Source: Biomaibacter acetigenes (GTDB taxonomy: Bacteria; Bacillota; Thermosediminibacteria; Thermosediminibacterales; Tepidanaerobacteraceae). From it: a stretch of 64,000 nucleotides of DNA. Both the position numbers and the translations under genes were made by a program. This document shows, piece by piece, positions 39,001 to 47,416 of this stretch (within the stretch, counting starts at the first letter, position 1; the number at the start of each line of letters is the position of its first letter). The stretch is taken from the NCBI RefSeq assembly GCF_003691585.1, contig NZ_CP033169.1, positions 2,976,001 to 3,040,000 on the forward strand. The letters run 5' to 3'. The notes below the pieces were generated by a model. That model did not search any database. It was not told where the DNA came from and was given only the letters and a program-made list of their open reading frames with translations.

Positions 39001-40659
39001 CTATCTGCCGATTACCTTTTGAACTCTGAGGGCCATTTCCATATTGAGGCGGTCCCGGGGATCATCCAGATTTATTCCCACTATTTCCTGTATTCTCTGG
39101 ATGCGGTAAAGTACGGTGTTATAATGGGTGTAAAGCTCCTGGGAGATTTTTTTAAGATTGCCGTTACACTCAAAATATGCTTCCAGGGTTTTTATGAGTT
39201 CTGTACCGTGCTTTATGTCATATATTTCCAGGGGCTCGATAAATTCCCTGTAGAATTTCAGAAGCTCCTCCTGATCTGCCTGCTGGTAAAGCAGACGGTA
39301 AACTCCAAGATCGTCAAAATGGACCACGGACCTGTTGGTAATACCGGGCCCTATGGCAATGGCCCTTCTTGCATCCTGGTAGCTTTTATAAAGGTCAGCA
39401 GGATCCATGTAAAATCTGCCTATGCCCAGCATTACAGAAATACCTTTAATTTCCTGCGTTATTCTATTGACGATCTCCTGTCCCATCCGGCAAATATGCT
39501 GCTTTAAATTCGGTTCATCTTTCTCTACAGGTAATAATATTATCATATTTTCACTTTTAACGCCAACTATGGTCTTTTTACCGTTGGTGGCGGTTATCTC
39601 ATCGATTATCCTTATAATGCGGTTTTTGATACGGGTCTTATCAATTTCGTCCAGTTCTGCAAACAGGGTCTTCTCAAGACCTTTGATTTCCATGGCTATG
39701 ATAACATATCTTTTTTGCGGGTCATAACCGAAAAAAGCTCCGCGTTCAATGGCCGATTGTTTTTGGGCCGAATCCCTGGATAACAGGTCATCCACGAACT
39801 CATTCTTATGGCGGGTTTCAACTTCCAGGATAGATCTTTCCTTCAGCATATATAGTGCCGCGATGGTGGCTCCCCTTTCCAGGATGCTGAAGTCAAGCCC
39901 TCTGAGAGCAGAATTTTTTTCCCAGGCAAAAATCCTTCCATATGTTTTGCCATCGGCTATGACCGGTAGAATGATCCTGGATATCCTGTTACTTTTTAAT
40001 TCGCACCGGTAATATTCAAATCTATCCACTACCTTAATCGGATGCTCCCTTGCAGGATCAAAGGCTAAATAATCATCGAACAATTCATCATCAAACATGG
40101 TACTTTTTGCCATAGTGCCAAGTACATCGTCTTTAATGGCAACGGGGTTGTTTATAATCTCTGACAGAACCGTGGCTATGTCTTTTAAATCACCGCCTGT
40201 TAAAACAGCCTCCATGAGATGGCGATGAGCATCATCCATGCGCTGGAAAAAGGCTGACTGCCGGTTGAATATCTCATCCAGTACCGGCATCATTATGTCA
40301 GGAAAGGGCATCTCGTAAGGAAGCTTCAAAAGGGGAAAATCAAGTTTGTTGGCAGCTTCCAGCATCACAGGAGGAATATCCTGGATATATCGACCAGGTT
40401 TAATGCCTATGGCTGCAAGGTTTCTCCGGTTTAGCTCCGGAATAAGCCTTTCCTGAGCTTTAAGGTCATCTTTTATGGAATATACTGTGGTAAGCAGGAG
40501 TTCACCTTCCTTCACCCAGTTCAATATATCCGGAACTTCCATGATGTTAACCCTTGTTATGATCCGGTCGAGGCCTTTCTCCCCGGCTGCCACCGTTACA
40601 TTTCCAAGAAGATTGTTTTCGATGGCTTCTCTTACGGAAATACCCATTTCCCGCTTCAT
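39001..40659 (-). CDS. PucR-family transcriptional regulator
   Basis: This 552-residue regulator has an N-terminal PucR ligand-sensing domain (GISVREAIENNLLGNVTVAA, to about residue 125), a central GAF/GGDEF-like region and a C-terminal PucR helix-turn-helix (CNGNLKKISQELYTHYNTVL). Relatives control purine catabolism in Bacillus. The ATG at 40659 gives MKREMGIS, with GGGAGG 10 bases before it; an upstream reading is longer but unsupported. It follows the oxamate/carbamate operon and is the obvious candidate regulator for it. Confidence 0.87.
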   Translation of the reverse strand: MKREMGISVREAIENNLLGNVTVAAGEKGLDRIITRVNIMEVPDILNWVKEGELLLTTVYSIKDDLKAQERLIPELNRRNLAAIGIKPGRYIQDIPPVMLEAANKLDFPLLKLPYEMPFPDIMMPVLDEIFNRQSAFFQRMDDAHRHLMEAVLTGGDLKDIATVLSEIINNPVAIKDDVLGTMAKSTMFDDELFDDYLAFDPAREHPIKVVDRFEYYRCELKSNRISRIILPVIADGKTYGRIFAWEKNSALRGLDFSILERGATIAALYMLKERSILEVETRHKNEFVDDLLSRDSAQKQSAIERGAFFGYDPQKRYVIIAMEIKGLEKTLFAELDEIDKTRIKNRIIRIIDEITATNGKKTIVGVKSENMIILLPVEKDEPNLKQHICRMGQEIVNRITQEIKGISVMLGIGRFYMDPADLYKSYQDARRAIAIGPGITNRSVVHFDDLGVYRLLYQQADQEELLKFYREFIEPLEIYDIKHGTELIKTLEAYFECNGNLKKISQELYTHYNTVLYRIQRIQEIVGINLDDPRDRLNMEMALRVQKVIGR

Positions 40660-40763
40660 ACCGCATAAACCTCCCTGAAATCGAAATAAGAAGTTCATTC
40701 TCCATAATAATTCTATCAATACTTTTAAAATTCCTTTTTATTTGTGAAAAATGTAAAATTTAA

Positions 40764-40784: not shown

Positions 40785-41678
40785 TTAATTTCTTTGATAG
40801 GGAATCCTTCTGGCCGGTTCAAAGGGACATTTTCCTTCTTTGAGTATATTTTTATAGACTCCAATATTTCTATCTTCTATATGGTCAAATATCATGGGAG
40901 TATTTGTGCCAAAACTGACATATTTTATGGGGTCCGGTGAAAGGGTGCTCATCATTATTTCCTCGGTGCCGCGGGCCTGGGCAAGTTTCTGGGCGATGGG
41001 GCTCACCACCATGCTGTGACCGAAATAGTAGTTTCCCGCCGCATCAGGCCCCACTGCATTTACCCCCACCACATATACATGGTTGTCATAGGCTCTGGCG
41101 CTGTTGGTAAGAGCCCAGATATCAAAGCTTCTGAGAAGGGCTGATGGCCTCACCATTACCTCGGCTCCCAGGAGGGCCATTTCCCGGGAAAGTTCCGGAA
41201 AATCTCCATCATAGCATATCATAATGCCGATTCTGGCAAATCCAAGGTCAAAAACAGGAGCTTCGCTGCCGGCCGTCGACCATCCTCCGCCTTCCAGCCG
41301 CTCTGTTGGAAAAAGATGGGTTTTGCGGTATTTTCCTATAATCCCCTCCCTGGGGCCTATCAGGACCGCGCTGTTGTAAATCACCTTCTCCCGGGAGCCC
41401 TTCTCATATGTGGGGAAAACTATGTATGCTCCGAGTTCTTTTGATAGCTTTCCCACAACTTCCGTGGAGGGGCCGGGCACCGGTTCCACCAGGTTGTAAA
41501 AATCCTCCAGGGGCATATTGGGGGAAAATCCGGTGGTTACGGTTTCCGGAAAAACCATGAGCTCCGGATGAAATTCCTCATGAGCTTTTTTTGCCCAGTA
41601 CCGTATTTTTTCAAGATTATATTTTATGTCGTTGGGTTTTGAGGCTATCTGTATTCCGCATACCTTAAATTCCTGCAA
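40785..41678 (-). CDS. Nitrilase-superfamily amidase or carbamoylase
   Basis: This 297-residue cytosolic hydrolase has the nitrilase catalytic triad Glu45 (VFPETVTTG), Lys119 (KYRKTHLFP) and Cys155 (IMICYDGDFPE). Members hydrolyse amides or N-carbamoyl groups. Being last in an operon with oxamate carbamoyltransferase-type proteins, carbamate kinase and a cyclase, it may cleave a ureido or amide intermediate such as a purine ring product or oxamate. This is an inference. The start is TTG, overlapping the end of the carbamate kinase gene by 14 bases. Confidence 0.8.
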   Translation of the reverse strand: MQEFKVCGIQIASKPNDIKYNLEKIRYWAKKAHEEFHPELMVFPETVTTGFSPNMPLEDFYNLVEPVPGPSTEVVGKLSKELGAYIVFPTYEKGSREKVIYNSAVLIGPREGIIGKYRKTHLFPTERLEGGGWSTAGSEAPVFDLGFARIGIMICYDGDFPELSREMALLGAEVMVRPSALLRSFDIWALTNSARAYDNHVYVVGVNAVGPDAAGNYYFGHSMVVSPIAQKLAQARGTEEIMMSTLSPDPIKYVSFGTNTPMIFDHIEDRNIGVYKNILKEGKCPFEPARRIPYQRN

Positions 41679-42639
41679 TGTTTTCCACCACCGCCTTTCT
41701 GGTAACTACAGTTCCCGCCCTGCCTTCGGCTCCGAGCAGGGCATTGCCCAGGGAAGTGATGACAGCCATTCTCCCGCCATTTTCCACAAACTTTAGAGCG
41801 GCCTTTACTTTAGGACCCATGCTGCCTGCCTTGAAATGACCCTGTTCATAATAGTCTGAAAGCTCCTCAGCGGTAACCGCGGTCAGATTTTGCTGTAGAT
41901 GTGTCTTATAATTTATCGCCACATGGGACACATCGGTTAGGATGAGCAGCACATCCGCGTCTACTTCCTCCGCCAGTTTTTCCGCGGCCAGGTCCTTGTC
42001 TATAACCGCGTCTATACCGGTAACTTCCCCCGTATCTCTTACCGCCACCGGAATGCCACCACCCCCGGATGCGATGACAACAGCCCCGTGATTTATCAGG
42101 GCTTTTACCGCCGAAATTTCAAGAAGGCCCCCGGGCGGGGGAGACGGCACCACGCGCCGCCATCCGCGACCGCTGTCTTCCTTCCAGACTTCGCCTCTGT
42201 CTTTTTGAGCTTTCATGGCCTCCTGTTGCGAATAAAAAGCTCCTATGGGCTTCGTGGGATTTGAAAAGGCGGGGTCCTTTGTATCCACTATGACTTGAGA
42301 TACCAGGGTAACAACGGTCCTGTCGATACCCAGCTTCCTGAATTCATTGTAAAGTGCCTGCTGCACCATGTATCCTATCATACCCTGGGACATGGCACCG
42401 CATACAAAGAGCGGCATAGGGGGAATCCCGCCGTATTCCCCCATGCTCTGCTGCTGGAGTATTCTCCCAACCTGGGGACCGTTGCCGTGGGTTATGACAA
42501 GCCTGTTTCCCTTCAGTATAAGCCGCGCCAGTTGGGATGCCGTGATTTTCACATTTTCCATCTGCTCTTCAAAGGTGCCCTTCTGGCCAGGCTGCAGTAT
42601 GGCATTTCCACCCAAGGCTACCACAATAGTCCCGGGCAT
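41665..42639 (-). CDS. arcC: Carbamate kinase
   Basis: This enzyme makes ATP from carbamoyl phosphate and ADP. The 324-residue protein belongs to the amino acid kinase fold: VVALGGNAILQPGQKGTFEEQ, VITHGNGPQVG, ASGGGGIPV and KAGSMGPKVKAALKFVENGG. The ATG at 42639 follows GGGG by 7 bases. Next to FdrA/DUF1116/DUF2877 genes it is the catabolic type, as with E. coli ybcF, harvesting ATP from oxamate-derived carbamoyl phosphate rather than from arginine. Confidence 0.93.
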   Translation of the reverse strand: MPGTIVVALGGNAILQPGQKGTFEEQMENVKITASQLARLILKGNRLVITHGNGPQVGRILQQQSMGEYGGIPPMPLFVCGAMSQGMIGYMVQQALYNEFRKLGIDRTVVTLVSQVIVDTKDPAFSNPTKPIGAFYSQQEAMKAQKDRGEVWKEDSGRGWRRVVPSPPPGGLLEISAVKALINHGAVVIASGGGGIPVAVRDTGEVTGIDAVIDKDLAAEKLAEEVDADVLLILTDVSHVAINYKTHLQQNLTAVTAEELSDYYEQGHFKAGSMGPKVKAALKFVENGGRMAVITSLGNALLGAEGRAGTVVTRKAVVENIAGI

Positions 42640-42649
42640 CACATCACCC

Positions 42650-43432
42650 CTATTCCTCGTGGAAGGCCACTATGCGGCAGATACAGGATTCGCCGCCTAC
42701 AAACCTCCAGGGGAAACATCCGATTACGGTCCTCTTGTTCAGAAGTTTGTCTATGTCTCCGCCCAGATTTTCGGCATGGATTATATCATGTGGGAACAGC
42801 TGCACATGCATTAGCTGGTAATGGCTCGGGGGAAATATATCATCGAGGCCCTTACCGTATTTGTTCTTCAGGTACTCGTCGGCTTCTTTCGCCTGGGCCG
42901 GCATCCAGTCCCTTATCTTGGTGTTCATGGGATGGTCGGCGGAACCGCAATCCACGCCGAGCCATTTGAATTTCATCTTCCTGCACCAGTCCGCAAATTC
43001 CATGGTGGGGCCGGGATGTTTTATCATGTAGCGGACTTCATCGGCTTCGGGCTGGTCGAAAGAATAATGGTGATACCCTGTATGTATTATCAGGATATCC
43101 CCTTCCCGCACATCGGCCCGTTCCATGATGTCTTTGGATGTGTAAATACCGTAATCTTCCGCTATGTCACTCACATCCACCACAACCCCCGGAGCTACCA
43201 GTTCTTCCAGGGGAATGCTGGCGATATCCCTGCCGTGAGTGCAGAAATGCAGGGAACCGTCGAGGTGAGTACCTACATGGTTACTGTGGGTCAAAAGCTG
43301 GCCGTTGGCACCGTTAGGCGCCAGTCTCTTGAAAAATTTTATCTGCAGCGGTTCGTAGGTTGGCCACGGTGGAGAAAGATGGCTCAAAGGCTGAGTTAAA
43401 TCATACATTTTAACATGATCCAGGAAACTCAT
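42650..43432 (-). CDS. Cyclase-family metal-dependent hydrolase (PF04199)
   Basis: The 260-residue protein has the metal motif HVGTHLDGSLHF (HxGTHxDxxxH) around residue 53, plus LIIHTGYHHY and GVDCGSADHPMN. The family includes kynurenine formamidase and isatin hydrolase, which open or trim amide and lactam bonds. In this operon it could open a cyclic ureide from purine breakdown, but the substrate is unknown. The ATG at 43432 is 8 bases after GAGGAGG. Confidence 0.82.
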   Translation of the reverse strand: MSFLDHVKMYDLTQPLSHLSPPWPTYEPLQIKFFKRLAPNGANGQLLTHSNHVGTHLDGSLHFCTHGRDIASIPLEELVAPGVVVDVSDIAEDYGIYTSKDIMERADVREGDILIIHTGYHHYSFDQPEADEVRYMIKHPGPTMEFADWCRKMKFKWLGVDCGSADHPMNTKIRDWMPAQAKEADEYLKNKYGKGLDDIFPPSHYQLMHVQLFPHDIIHAENLGGDIDKLLNKRTVIGCFPWRFVGGESCICRIVAFHEE

Positions 43433-43480
43433 CAAGAAGACCTCCTCTTTTATTTAAATGTAGCTATTGAATATTAGCTA

Positions 43481-44722
43481 CTAAAGGCCATATTCCTCGG
43501 CGAAGGCCACCAGAGCATCTTCGAAGCATTTGGCCGGCGGATGCACCAGACCCGCACCCACCTGACCCACGCCGGGGTCTTTGTGGGCAATACCGGTGTT
43601 GATTATGGGTAGTATGCCGGTTTCTATCACTTTTTGGATATCGATTCCAGTGGGAGTGCCCCTGAAATCCAGATATGGAATGGAATAGGCCCTGTTTTCG
43701 GCTGTGGTTATTTCATACATGCTCAGGGTATAGTTCAGTGCATCTTTAACATTGCCTCCTACGAACTGCACGATGGCCGGGGCCGCTGCCATGGCAAATC
43801 CTCCGATGCCCACGGTTTCGGATATAACGCTGTCCCCGATATCAGGATTGGCATCTTCGGGGCCGTAGCCCGGAAAATAGAGGCCTTCCACCTTCTCGGC
43901 AGGGGCGGTAAACCACCGGTCTCCAAGACCTGCCACTCTAATACCGAAATCGGTGCCGTTTCTTGCCATGGTGGTAACTATGGTGCTCTCCCTTATATTT
44001 TTACCTGCGTCAGCGGTGGCCTTACATGCCGCCATGGAAAGATTTAAAAAGAAATGGTCATTGCCGTTAATGAACTCAAAAACTTTTGCCACATCTTCTT
44101 TAGTCAGGCTGCTTTTGACCAGGCCCGGTGCTATCTGCCTCATAAACAGCGAGGTGCCGGCCCTGTTCCTATTGTGGCATTCATCCCCCATCATCATAGC
44201 CTGAGTCTGCAGGTTTTTCACATCGATTTCTCCAACTATGTCCAGGGCCTCTTTTAAAGCGGGCCCCAGCACTTTTTCCATCCACCGCAGCCTTTCGATA
44301 ACCTCGGGACCGTAAGCCCCGAAGCGCAGGGCTTTCCCCAGACCCTCGTTGAGGTTGCAAAAAGCTTTATTCCCGTAGGTCTTGTTCTCCACTATGAACA
44401 CCGGCATGGATGCCGATGTAACTCCAGCCATGGGGCCTACCGCATCGTGATGATGGCATGAATCAAAGCTTATTTCCCCCGACGAGGCCAGTTCTTCCGC
44501 TTCCTTGATATCTTTCGCCAGGCCTTCATAAATGAGAGCCCCCATCACCGCACCTCTCATGGGGCCGGACATTCTTTCCCATGTGACGGGCGGGCCCGAG
44601 TGAAGTATGGTCTTTTTGGTCATCCCCGGCACTGTATCCAGGGCTTTGCCGATGCCCACCAGCACCGGTCTGCTGTTTAAAAATCTTTCCACCACCTGAT
44701 TATTGGCTTTTTGTATATCCAA
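43481..44722 (-). CDS. allG: DUF1116 protein, YlbE/AllG-like oxamate carbamoyltransferase subunit
   Basis: The 413-residue protein matches DUF1116 proteins: GAVMGALIYEGLAKDIKEAE, SCHHHDAVGPMAGVTSASMP and NGNDHFFLNLSMAACKATAD are typical. In E. coli the homologue ylbE (allG) works with fdrA (allF) and ylbF (allH) as an oxamate carbamoyltransferase, which splits oxalurate with phosphate to oxamate and carbamoyl phosphate. The start is TTG, 7 bases after GGGGG. It directly follows the small FdrA-like gene. Confidence 0.85.
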   Translation of the reverse strand: MDIQKANNQVVERFLNSRPVLVGIGKALDTVPGMTKKTILHSGPPVTWERMSGPMRGAVMGALIYEGLAKDIKEAEELASSGEISFDSCHHHDAVGPMAGVTSASMPVFIVENKTYGNKAFCNLNEGLGKALRFGAYGPEVIERLRWMEKVLGPALKEALDIVGEIDVKNLQTQAMMMGDECHNRNRAGTSLFMRQIAPGLVKSSLTKEDVAKVFEFINGNDHFFLNLSMAACKATADAGKNIRESTIVTTMARNGTDFGIRVAGLGDRWFTAPAEKVEGLYFPGYGPEDANPDIGDSVISETVGIGGFAMAAAPAIVQFVGGNVKDALNYTLSMYEITTAENRAYSIPYLDFRGTPTGIDIQKVIETGILPIINTGIAHKDPGVGQVGAGLVHPPAKCFEDALVAFAEEYGL

Positions 44723-44733
44723 TTGCTTACCCC

Positions 44734-44907
44734 CTACTTCTTAAGTTTATTTAAAATGCTCAAAAGTCTTTGATTCCCCCCTGCAGGAGGCCTGAACTTC
44801 ACGTGAATAACCGGTACATTCAGTGATTTAAGGTCATCCCGGAAAACCGCAAGACCGATATTTACCACTTTCAAATCTTGTTTAAACAGGTCATTTATCT
44901 TTGACAT
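44734..44907 (-). CDS. Small FdrA-like protein (57 residues)
   Basis: A short gene lies between fdrA and the DUF1116 gene. It encodes 57 residues, beginning MSKINDLFKQ and containing VNIGLAVFRDDL, VPVIHVKFRPPAGGN and LLSILNKLKK. The VNIGL...F...L......V.HV..RPPAGG pattern is what I recall from the C-terminus of larger FdrA proteins, so it may be a separated FdrA module. A GGTGAAG lies rather far before the ATG. The stop (44736-44734) is 11 bases before the next start. Confidence 0.75.
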   Translation of the reverse strand: MSKINDLFKQDLKVVNIGLAVFRDDLKSLNVPVIHVKFRPPAGGNQRLLSILNKLKK

Positions 44908-44922
44908 AATATGGCTTTTTCT

Positions 44923-46464
44923 TCACCTGCCTTTACTTATGATTTCCAGGCAAGTTTTCACTGCTCTGGCATTGGTAGATGCCACGATGGCGCCGGAATT
45001 TTCCAATTTTTCCTTCTGCGCATCATAATCCTGGGGGTCATCAAAAGTGCCGCACAGGGATATGACCACCGGCAGGTAGTCCCCTCTTTTTGCAGCGATT
45101 TCCTTAGCCTTTACTATATACGGCGCCAGCTCTCCGGCAGGGTCTATATTGGCTCCGTATCCCAATACCACATCCATCAGCACAACAGCCGTTTCAGGGT
45201 CCCGGGCCTCTTTTAAGAGCCTTTCCTGGCGGGCGGTGAAGTCTATCATGGGATGGGGCCTACCCCTGGTGAACTCGTCATCTCCCATGTCGATGATGGT
45301 ATGCTCTTTGCTGATATCCTTTGAAGGCAATTTTTCTTCCGGTAGAATCGGTGTGGCGGAATACACCTTCCCAAGCACCCTTTTCATCAAGACCATGGCC
45401 TCATCGCACAGGCTCCCGCCGGAATAAAGACCTCTTATATATTTCTGGCGAGGCATTAATTTTGCGGCTTCCTCCCGGGCCTTTAGACTCAATTCCTTTT
45501 CTTCGGTATCCTGCGGTGCAGGACCATAGGCTATCTCGTAAGCCTTATATGCTGTTTCTTCCAGGGTGCTGGCGGTTTCAAACCCCTTGCCCCGCGCAAG
45601 TTCTAAATCCGCTCCTATAAAATGCACCAGTACTTTCTTCCGGCTGTCCTGCGCCAGTTTTAAAATTTTATCCATGACTTCCCCCGCAGGGGGTTTTGAT
45701 ACGAGCACCACAACATCGGTAGCCTCATCGGCTAAAAGGGCTTCCAGTCCCATAGCCATCATGATGCCCCCCACCTCAGCCTTCAAATCCCGGCCTCCGG
45801 TACCGATAAGCTGGGAAACGCCTCCTCCCAGGCGACCTATTATGGAGGATATTTCCTGGCTGCCGGTGCCCGATGCGCCTACAATTCCTATTTTGCCCCG
45901 GGGCACCTTATTGGCAAAGGCCAGGGGAACACCGTTGATAATGGCGGTGCCGCAGTCGGGGCCCATCATAAGAAGACCCTTTTCCTGCGCTATTTTCTTT
46001 AACCGTATCTCATCCTCCAGTGAAACATTGTCACTGAAAACCATCACATGCCGCCCGGCGTTGAGGGCCTTTTCCGCCTCTGCCGCCGCGTACATACCGG
46101 GCACCGATATCAACACCATGTTGGCATCAGGCATATAGGACAGGGCCGAATCCAGAGTGGGCGGATCATAATCCTGGCCGCCGGTGTTCCTGCGGTTGAG
46201 AAGTTCATCCACTTTTGTCCGGGCCGCCTCCAATTGGACGGCAGTCTCAGCCCGGAGGGCAATAACGAGATCACTGGGAGTGCAGCTTTCCACCTCTTCA
46301 TTGGATAAATCCACATTTTTTAAAAGTTCCTTGTTGTAGTCAGTGGCCATGACCACCACCGCTTCATTAACGCCTTCCATGGATTTTACGGCTTTTGACA
46401 CTGTCATAAGGACCACTGAATCATAAAAAGAGTTCTTTTTAACAATAATAATATTACTTTTCAT
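44923..46464 (-). CDS. fdrA: FdrA/AllF-like acyl-CoA synthetase-fold protein
   Basis: About 513 residues. The CoA-ligase-type domain has IGIVGASGTGSQEISSIIG and LLMMGPDCGTAIINGVPLAF; a second domain near residue 370 has the succinyl-CoA-synthetase-like VVLMDVVLGYGANIDPAGE. E. coli FdrA (AllF) is part of oxamate carbamoyltransferase. I chose the ATG at 46464 (MKSNIIIVKKN) because it aligns with FdrA starts; a GGAGG sits upstream at an unusually long distance. It overlaps the DUF2877 gene. E. coli FdrA is about 555 residues; this one plus the 57-residue neighbour gives a similar total. Confidence 0.88.
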   Translation of the reverse strand: MKSNIIIVKKNSFYDSVVLMTVSKAVKSMEGVNEAVVVMATDYNKELLKNVDLSNEEVESCTPSDLVIALRAETAVQLEAARTKVDELLNRRNTGGQDYDPPTLDSALSYMPDANMVLISVPGMYAAAEAEKALNAGRHVMVFSDNVSLEDEIRLKKIAQEKGLLMMGPDCGTAIINGVPLAFANKVPRGKIGIVGASGTGSQEISSIIGRLGGGVSQLIGTGGRDLKAEVGGIMMAMGLEALLADEATDVVVLVSKPPAGEVMDKILKLAQDSRKKVLVHFIGADLELARGKGFETASTLEETAYKAYEIAYGPAPQDTEEKELSLKAREEAAKLMPRQKYIRGLYSGGSLCDEAMVLMKRVLGKVYSATPILPEEKLPSKDISKEHTIIDMGDDEFTRGRPHPMIDFTARQERLLKEARDPETAVVLMDVVLGYGANIDPAGELAPYIVKAKEIAAKRGDYLPVVISLCGTFDDPQDYDAQKEKLENSGAIVASTNARAVKTCLEIISKGR

Positions 46465-47416
46465 GATATTTCCATGGCTCACCTCCACAATTATTTTCAA
46501 ATATTGAGGATAGAGCTGTGTAAATCCCCCATACCATATATGTTCCTGAAGTGCTGCCTATGGAAAATACCCTCAGGGCAGCATCCGCTAATCTCTTTTT
46601 TTCAATACCGCAAGAAAAAATGCATTCCAGCAGGTCCGTCAAAGCTTTGGGCCCTTCTCCCAGGGCAGCGGCCTTTAGCATCTGCCGGCTTATGATATGG
46701 GTTTTCGAGGCGTTGCTGCGGATAAAATAAAGAAAACCATCAACCAGGGCAGAAATATCCACCACAGGATATACGGCCTTGTCGGCGGGGTCCGGTGCAT
46801 CTTTTTCTCCCGTCGAATCCGCCCGGGATCTGGACTCTAAATATATATATGAATAGATTACAGCCAGCATAAAACCCGATAAAAAATCATCTCCGGAAGG
46901 GGTCAGCCCCTGCCCTAGGCCTATCAAACTTCGGGCCGAGGGGGGAAACTGTGTTGGAACCGGCTTATCCCTGCAAAATTCACCCCAGTCCCGTACAAAA
47001 CAAGACAATCTGCTATATATGCCCAAATTATCATATGCTATACGGCCATTAGCCTCTTTTAAAAATCCGCCCAACAGAAAAATGTTTTGTTTTACGTTTT
47101 TTATATTTTCCGGCACCGGAATATGGGGTTTGAAATTATAAATATCTATGTGCTCAAAATCCATGATTTCCAGGCCATTTACCCGGAAACCACCGCCATC
47201 CCAGCATATAGCACGGGTTGCCTCCAGTTCCCTCCATACCGGTTTACCATCCCAAATACATATGGTATAGGGCCCCAGATATTCCCGTGTGTTTACAAAT
47301 CCGAGAAGTTCCCCATGAAATTCAGCATTAAAGGCTTTGCTGAAGACCGAGTGGATTTTTCCTTTTGGAAAATTTTGCAATATATCAAGGGCTCTACTAC
47401 CGATGATGGCCTTCAT
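46454..47416 (-). CDS. allH: DUF2877 protein, YlbF/AllH-like oxamate carbamoyltransferase subunit
   Basis: The 320-residue protein has the DUF2877 hallmark SLIGLGQGLTPSGDDFLSG near residue 165 and a C-terminal SIGSTSGTYMVWGIYTAL. In E. coli the homologue ylbF (allH) belongs to the AllFGH complex. It is the first of the three transferase genes in this operon and its end overlaps fdrA by 11 bases. An internal acidic insertion around residues 195-220 is not part of the core motif. Confidence 0.83.
   Translation of the reverse strand: MKAIIGSRALDILQNFPKGKIHSVFSKAFNAEFHGELLGFVNTREYLGPYTICIWDGKPVWRELEATRAICWDGGGFRVNGLEIMDFEHIDIYNFKPHIPVPENIKNVKQNIFLLGGFLKEANGRIAYDNLGIYSRLSCFVRDWGEFCRDKPVPTQFPPSARSLIGLGQGLTPSGDDFLSGFMLAVIYSYIYLESRSRADSTGEKDAPDPADKAVYPVVDISALVDGFLYFIRSNASKTHIISRQMLKAAALGEGPKALTDLLECIFSCGIEKKRLADAALRVFSIGSTSGTYMVWGIYTALSSIFENNCGGEPWKYHEK

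Follow-up and report, generated by a model that had tools for sequence, protein, structure and literature searches.

The 57-residue protein encoded between the allF/fdrA and allG/DUF1116 genes of Biomaibacter acetigenes is probably a small obligatory part of the AllF-AllG carbamoyltransferase core (oxamate carbamoyltransferase type). It was analyzed on a DNA stretch of 64,000 nucleotides (contig NZ_CP033169.1), called the window in the following, and represents a module of approximately 50 residues. Since this module was neither missing nor doubled in any of the sampled AllF-AllG pairs and can be located on each of the two partners or on its own, we regard it most simply as an obligatory part of a joint active unit. 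Genomes would vary solely in its address, i.e., the tail of AllF, the head of AllG, or a gene of its own between or beside them. The genes concerned are:

39001..40719, (-) strand, PucR-type purine catabolism regulator
40785..41678, (-) strand, carbon-nitrogen hydrolase (PF00795), same operon as M
41665..42642, (-) strand, carbamate kinase, allK-like (TIGR00746)
42650..43435, (-) strand, cyclase-family hydrolase (PF04199), same operon as M
43481..44722, (-) strand, allG/DUF1116 (PF06545) without the N-terminal module, 413 aa, TTG start
44734..44907, (-) strand, free-standing module gene, called M, 57 codons plus stop, ATG start
44923..46461, (-) strand, allF/fdrA without the C-terminal module, 512 aa from the ATG at 46461; the ORF is open to a TTG at 46500
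46454..47416, (-) strand, allH/DUF2877 (PF11392)

The operon order is AllH, AllF, module, AllG, cyclase-family hydrolase, carbamate kinase and carbon-nitrogen hydrolase, followed by the PucR regulator, while a xanthine/uracil permease, YqeC, a MobA-like transferase and XdhC are encoded upstream. AllF, AllG and AllH are thus encoded together with carbamate kinase, the gene set expected of AllFGH. The setting is one of purine breakdown and resembles the E. coli allantoin operon. Oxalurate is a possible substrate, as is a different carbamoyl compound, and paralogous operons may use substrates of other kinds. A second operon of the same genome (L107, G000:C1:1199212-1207856) contains AllF, module, AllG, carbamate kinase, cyclase and nitrilase genes, the module again being free-standing.

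The product of the M gene is MSKINDLFKQDLKVVNIGLAVFRDDLKSLNVPVIHVKFRPPAGGNQRLLSILNKLKK. The gene is separated from the allF/fdrA stop by 15 nt and from the allG/DUF1116 start by 11 nt. Read directly from the sequence, an AGGTGA overlaps the fdrA stop at a larger than usual spacing to the ATG of M, and a GGGGG stretch occurs shortly upstream of the allG TTG. Relatives of M were present in 12 of 61 genomes. As dS was saturated, codon positions were compared in its place, and M differed from its Thermosediminibacter relatives by 0.16-0.19 at first and second positions and by 0.58-0.60 at third positions. A chance ORF or a pseudogene remnant was rejected in view of the homology, the bias between codon positions and the presence of relatives in distant lineages; judged by these sequence comparisons, M is a real gene under purifying selection. 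A search of the 57 aa against Pfam yielded no entry for the module up to E 10. In genome annotation, short ORFs located between fdrA and allG ought to be called as subunits.

M matched positions 506-555 of the NCBIfam FdrA profile NF004760, which has 555 positions (E 2.2e-10), with a score below the whole-protein cut-off, as expected of a fragment. The FdrA of the window covered positions 5-494 of the same profile, and pairwise comparison gave no local alignment between M and this FdrA. In E. coli FdrA, residues 509-555 were identical to M at 19 of 47 positions (40%, E 4e-12). The similarity to the FdrA C-terminus claimed in the preliminary description is therefore borne out by both alignments, the sequence patterns quoted there are present in the 57-residue protein, and the FdrA of the window ends immediately ahead of this part and does not already contain its motif. 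An equally good match was obtained in E. coli YahG, an AllG/DUF1116 paralog, at residues 5-53 (41% over 49 aa, E 5e-13). E. coli K-12 consequently holds the module at two addresses, the FdrA tail of the fdrA-ylbE operon and the YahG head of the yahFG operon; it is absent from YlbE, which is the AllG encoded with FdrA, and from YahF, the partner of YahG.

The distribution of the module was determined in two ways. A scan of GTDB contigs starting from the module disclosed 80 loci, at which the module was free-standing, fused to AllF or fused to AllG and the genes stood in several orders (F-M-G, M-G-F, G-F-M). As such a scan selects on the module itself, the survey was repeated with selection on AllG (PF06545) alone. 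It comprised 299 genomes of the phylum of the window and, from the phyla to which a Mesorhizobium, a Caldilineaceae and a Lokiarchaeota locus belong, 398, 151 and 148 genomes, respectively; nearly all AllG loci in these draws from four phyla were retrieved for inspection. Exactly one module was present in 97 of 97 loci holding AllF and AllG, fused to AllG in 58, fused to AllF in 14 and free in 25. None of nine AllG loci lacking AllF had a module. Two further AllG loci exhibited a module and no visible AllF, both at the edge of the contig or of the retrieved region. Among the carriers of free-standing modules were Bacillota-side genomes, Asgard archaea and Pseudomonadota.

Separate profile scans of the 299 genomes identified 42 with AllF, and the same 42 possessed the module (Fisher p about 3e-52, kinship ignored). 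The cut-off of the FdrA scan (E 1e-30) was beyond the module's own match to this profile, so that the two scans do not count one signal twice. Copy numbers of AllF and the module also agreed in genomes with two operons, the exception being an extra partial AllF-like frame in one genome (G207:C3:557841-558560; 282 codons), a third frame of this kind for which no module or AllG match was listed nearby. Taken together, these sequence counts strongly support an obligate association of the module with AllF-AllG. The preliminary description had interpreted M as a split part of FdrA revealing a module boundary. The split and the boundary stand, while the assignment to FdrA in particular does not, as most sampled pairs carry the module on the AllG N-terminus; splitting off FdrA is one possible direction among several.

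Some loci showed additional features. Two tandem diverged AllG genes follow one AllF and one module in L131 and L135, and lone AllG-family genes, mostly diverged and possibly of different function, were found with no AllF or module nearby in L139, L144, L160-L163, L193, L200 and L201. An apparent second module copy in L158 was dismissed, as the match extended over 17 residues, scored 10.9 bits and lay in a different frame. Conjugative plasmids of E. coli and Klebsiella frequently carry yahG-like module-AllG fusions.

Domain fission and fusion are a known kind of event. On a FastTree phylogeny of 173 AllG cores, an unrooted tree with long branches, the address of the module changed at least about 20 times; when well-supported branches alone are counted, no fewer than 10 changes are required for the free, seven for the AllG-fused and five for the AllF-fused state. 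The closest relatives of the window locus were free-standing loci of Thermosediminibacter and its kin. Distances of AllF, module and AllG correlated moderately overall (0.34-0.55) and strongly in AllF-fused loci, no single partner being favoured. According to this tree, the module is an element that has been relocated repeatedly between its addresses.

An alignment of 180 modules revealed two conserved stretches, which in M are located as follows:

44854..44868, (-) strand, V-V-N-I-G stretch, residues 14-18 (N16 97%, G18 100% in 180 modules; a strand is predicted in the fused model)
44776..44796, (-) strand, F/W-R-P-P-A-G-G loop, residues 38-44 (conserved across 180 modules)

Within the loop, W38 (97%), P40 (100%), P41 (94%), A42 (90%) and G44 (93%) were conserved, as were F22 (98%) and L52 (97%) at all addresses. 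M of the window has F at residue 38, where W is found in 97%, and possesses the other residues of the N-x-G, F and W-x-P-P-A-x-G elements. In the same set, AllF and the module were joined by a long linker of variable length (median 23 aa, 9-60), and the module and AllG by a short one (median 6 aa, 2-20).

At one of the 80 loci of the module-based scan, AllF, module and AllG constitute one open frame of 1022 codons in an Anaerolinea metagenome-assembled genome (L077:4339-7404). This natural triple fusion was modelled with AlphaFold2 from a smaller alignment, as large mixed sets of AllF-only and AllG-only sequences misaligned AllF onto AllG, and gave a mean pLDDT of 86.6 and a pTM of 0.78. The module (residues 544-594) was predicted to fold as helix-strand-helix-strand-helix with a pLDDT of about 77-89; values for residues 520-536, the linker that follows AllF, remained below 50. 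Modelled alone, the module showed helices only and no strands (pTM 0.41), a model too uncertain for use, for which no PDB fold match above noise was obtained. The AllG part of the fusion model agreed well with 3CLQ (Z 61.9, rmsd 1.3 over 417). Its AllF part matched 3DMY as well, but with an rmsd of 20 angstrom (421 residues). The domain arrangement in the fusion model is therefore uncertain and either differs from that of the crystal or is wrong. Based on the linker lengths and the fused fold, we infer that the module packs where the AllF C-terminus meets the AllG N-terminus.

In the window, AllF, module and AllG would assemble non-covalently, together with AllH and carbamate kinase. The complex would turn a carbamoylated product of purine breakdown (oxalurate in E. 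coli) into carbamoyl phosphate, which would then yield ATP. Neither AllF, the module, AllG nor AllH matched a classical transcarbamylase family (ATCase/OTCase) in Pfam or NCBIfam. The N-x-G, F and W-(R)-P-P-A-x-G elements may complete the carbamoyl phosphate/substrate site or may lock the subunits together. With due reserve, we consider it possible that the module is an essential fourth element that gives active-site residues at the AllF-AllG interface, and that the three-gene description overlooks a separable component. Some Chloroflexota AllG-fused modules are strongly diverged (20-36 bits), which tempers a strict catalytic role.

It is a serious possibility as well, though short of probable, that the module is obligatory and non-catalytic, a clip for assembly or stability that tethers AllF to AllG or shields their interface and makes no contact with the substrate. 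The long low-confidence linker behind AllF and the short one in front of AllG suit a tether, and the small size of the module, its strands confined to the fused model and the diverged copies also fit this role. However, N16, G18, F22, W38, P40, P41 and G44 are near-invariant at every address, which is stricter than a tether needs, and a separately made module covalently tethers nothing. Within the obligate-module reading, the catalytic and the clip version are about even.

It is rather unlikely that the module is a regulatory or substrate-specificity subunit varying between operons. The AllF-AllG operons are paralogous and their neighbours differ, e.g., yahFG with yahI/yahJ versus fdrA-ylbE-ylbF-ybcF, but one module per pair and the same conserved residues in all operon types point to a common core role. 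That M is an FdrA tail broken off in one lineage by a nonsense or frameshift mutation and now drifting is very improbable: the FdrA of the window does end where the tail of the profile starts, but free modules also occur in the other groups named above, the codon-position bias is that of a conserved protein, and both AllF-AllG loci of this genome carry one free module.

The obligatory core module we favour is of wider interest than a single split gene, as it appears to be one element of AllF-AllG with three addresses. A module of about 50 residues that is always single, on either large subunit or alone, fixes the domain boundaries, its addresses show which chain ends must be close within the complex, and it offers a cleanly separable functional test of the enzyme. 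For structure work, the L077 fusion and the free-standing version are useful tools. The open-access full-text papers searched on FdrA, AllG/DUF1116, YahF/YahG and oxamate carbamoyltransferase do not describe the module. Neither the free-standing subunit nor the rule of one module per pair at three possible addresses was found in this literature, while the FdrA tail was already contained in an existing profile.

No genes were assigned to oxamic transcarbamylase between the 1960s and 2024, when it ceased to be an orphan enzyme; it consists of AllF, AllG and AllH in E. coli, which are active when purified together and display no sequence similarity to known transcarbamylases, and its mechanism, subunit arrangement and quaternary structure are still unresolved (PMC11326118). 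The AllF of this active preparation carries the module. Like E. coli AllFGH, the operon of the window has AllF, AllG, AllH and carbamate kinase near purine genes. E. coli AllFGH is however encoded by three genes, whereas the system of the window, known here from its sequence, has four counting the module. The C-terminus of E. coli FdrA/AllF likewise contains the same conserved motif and has the same operon partners as M, but there the module is joined to AllF by a linker, while it is a separate gene in the window. In E. coli YahG, the module likewise lies directly before AllG, but is fused to this AllG-type subunit, and the partner YahF is without it. Of the two crystal structures, 3DMY (E. 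coli FdrA) includes the module (chain 428-473 of 480). 3CLQ, an AllG-family protein of E. faecalis, covers the AllG core with its own residue numbering starting at about 56; this construct would thus begin directly after the module position and appears to be without the module. Neither structure holds AllF and AllG together.
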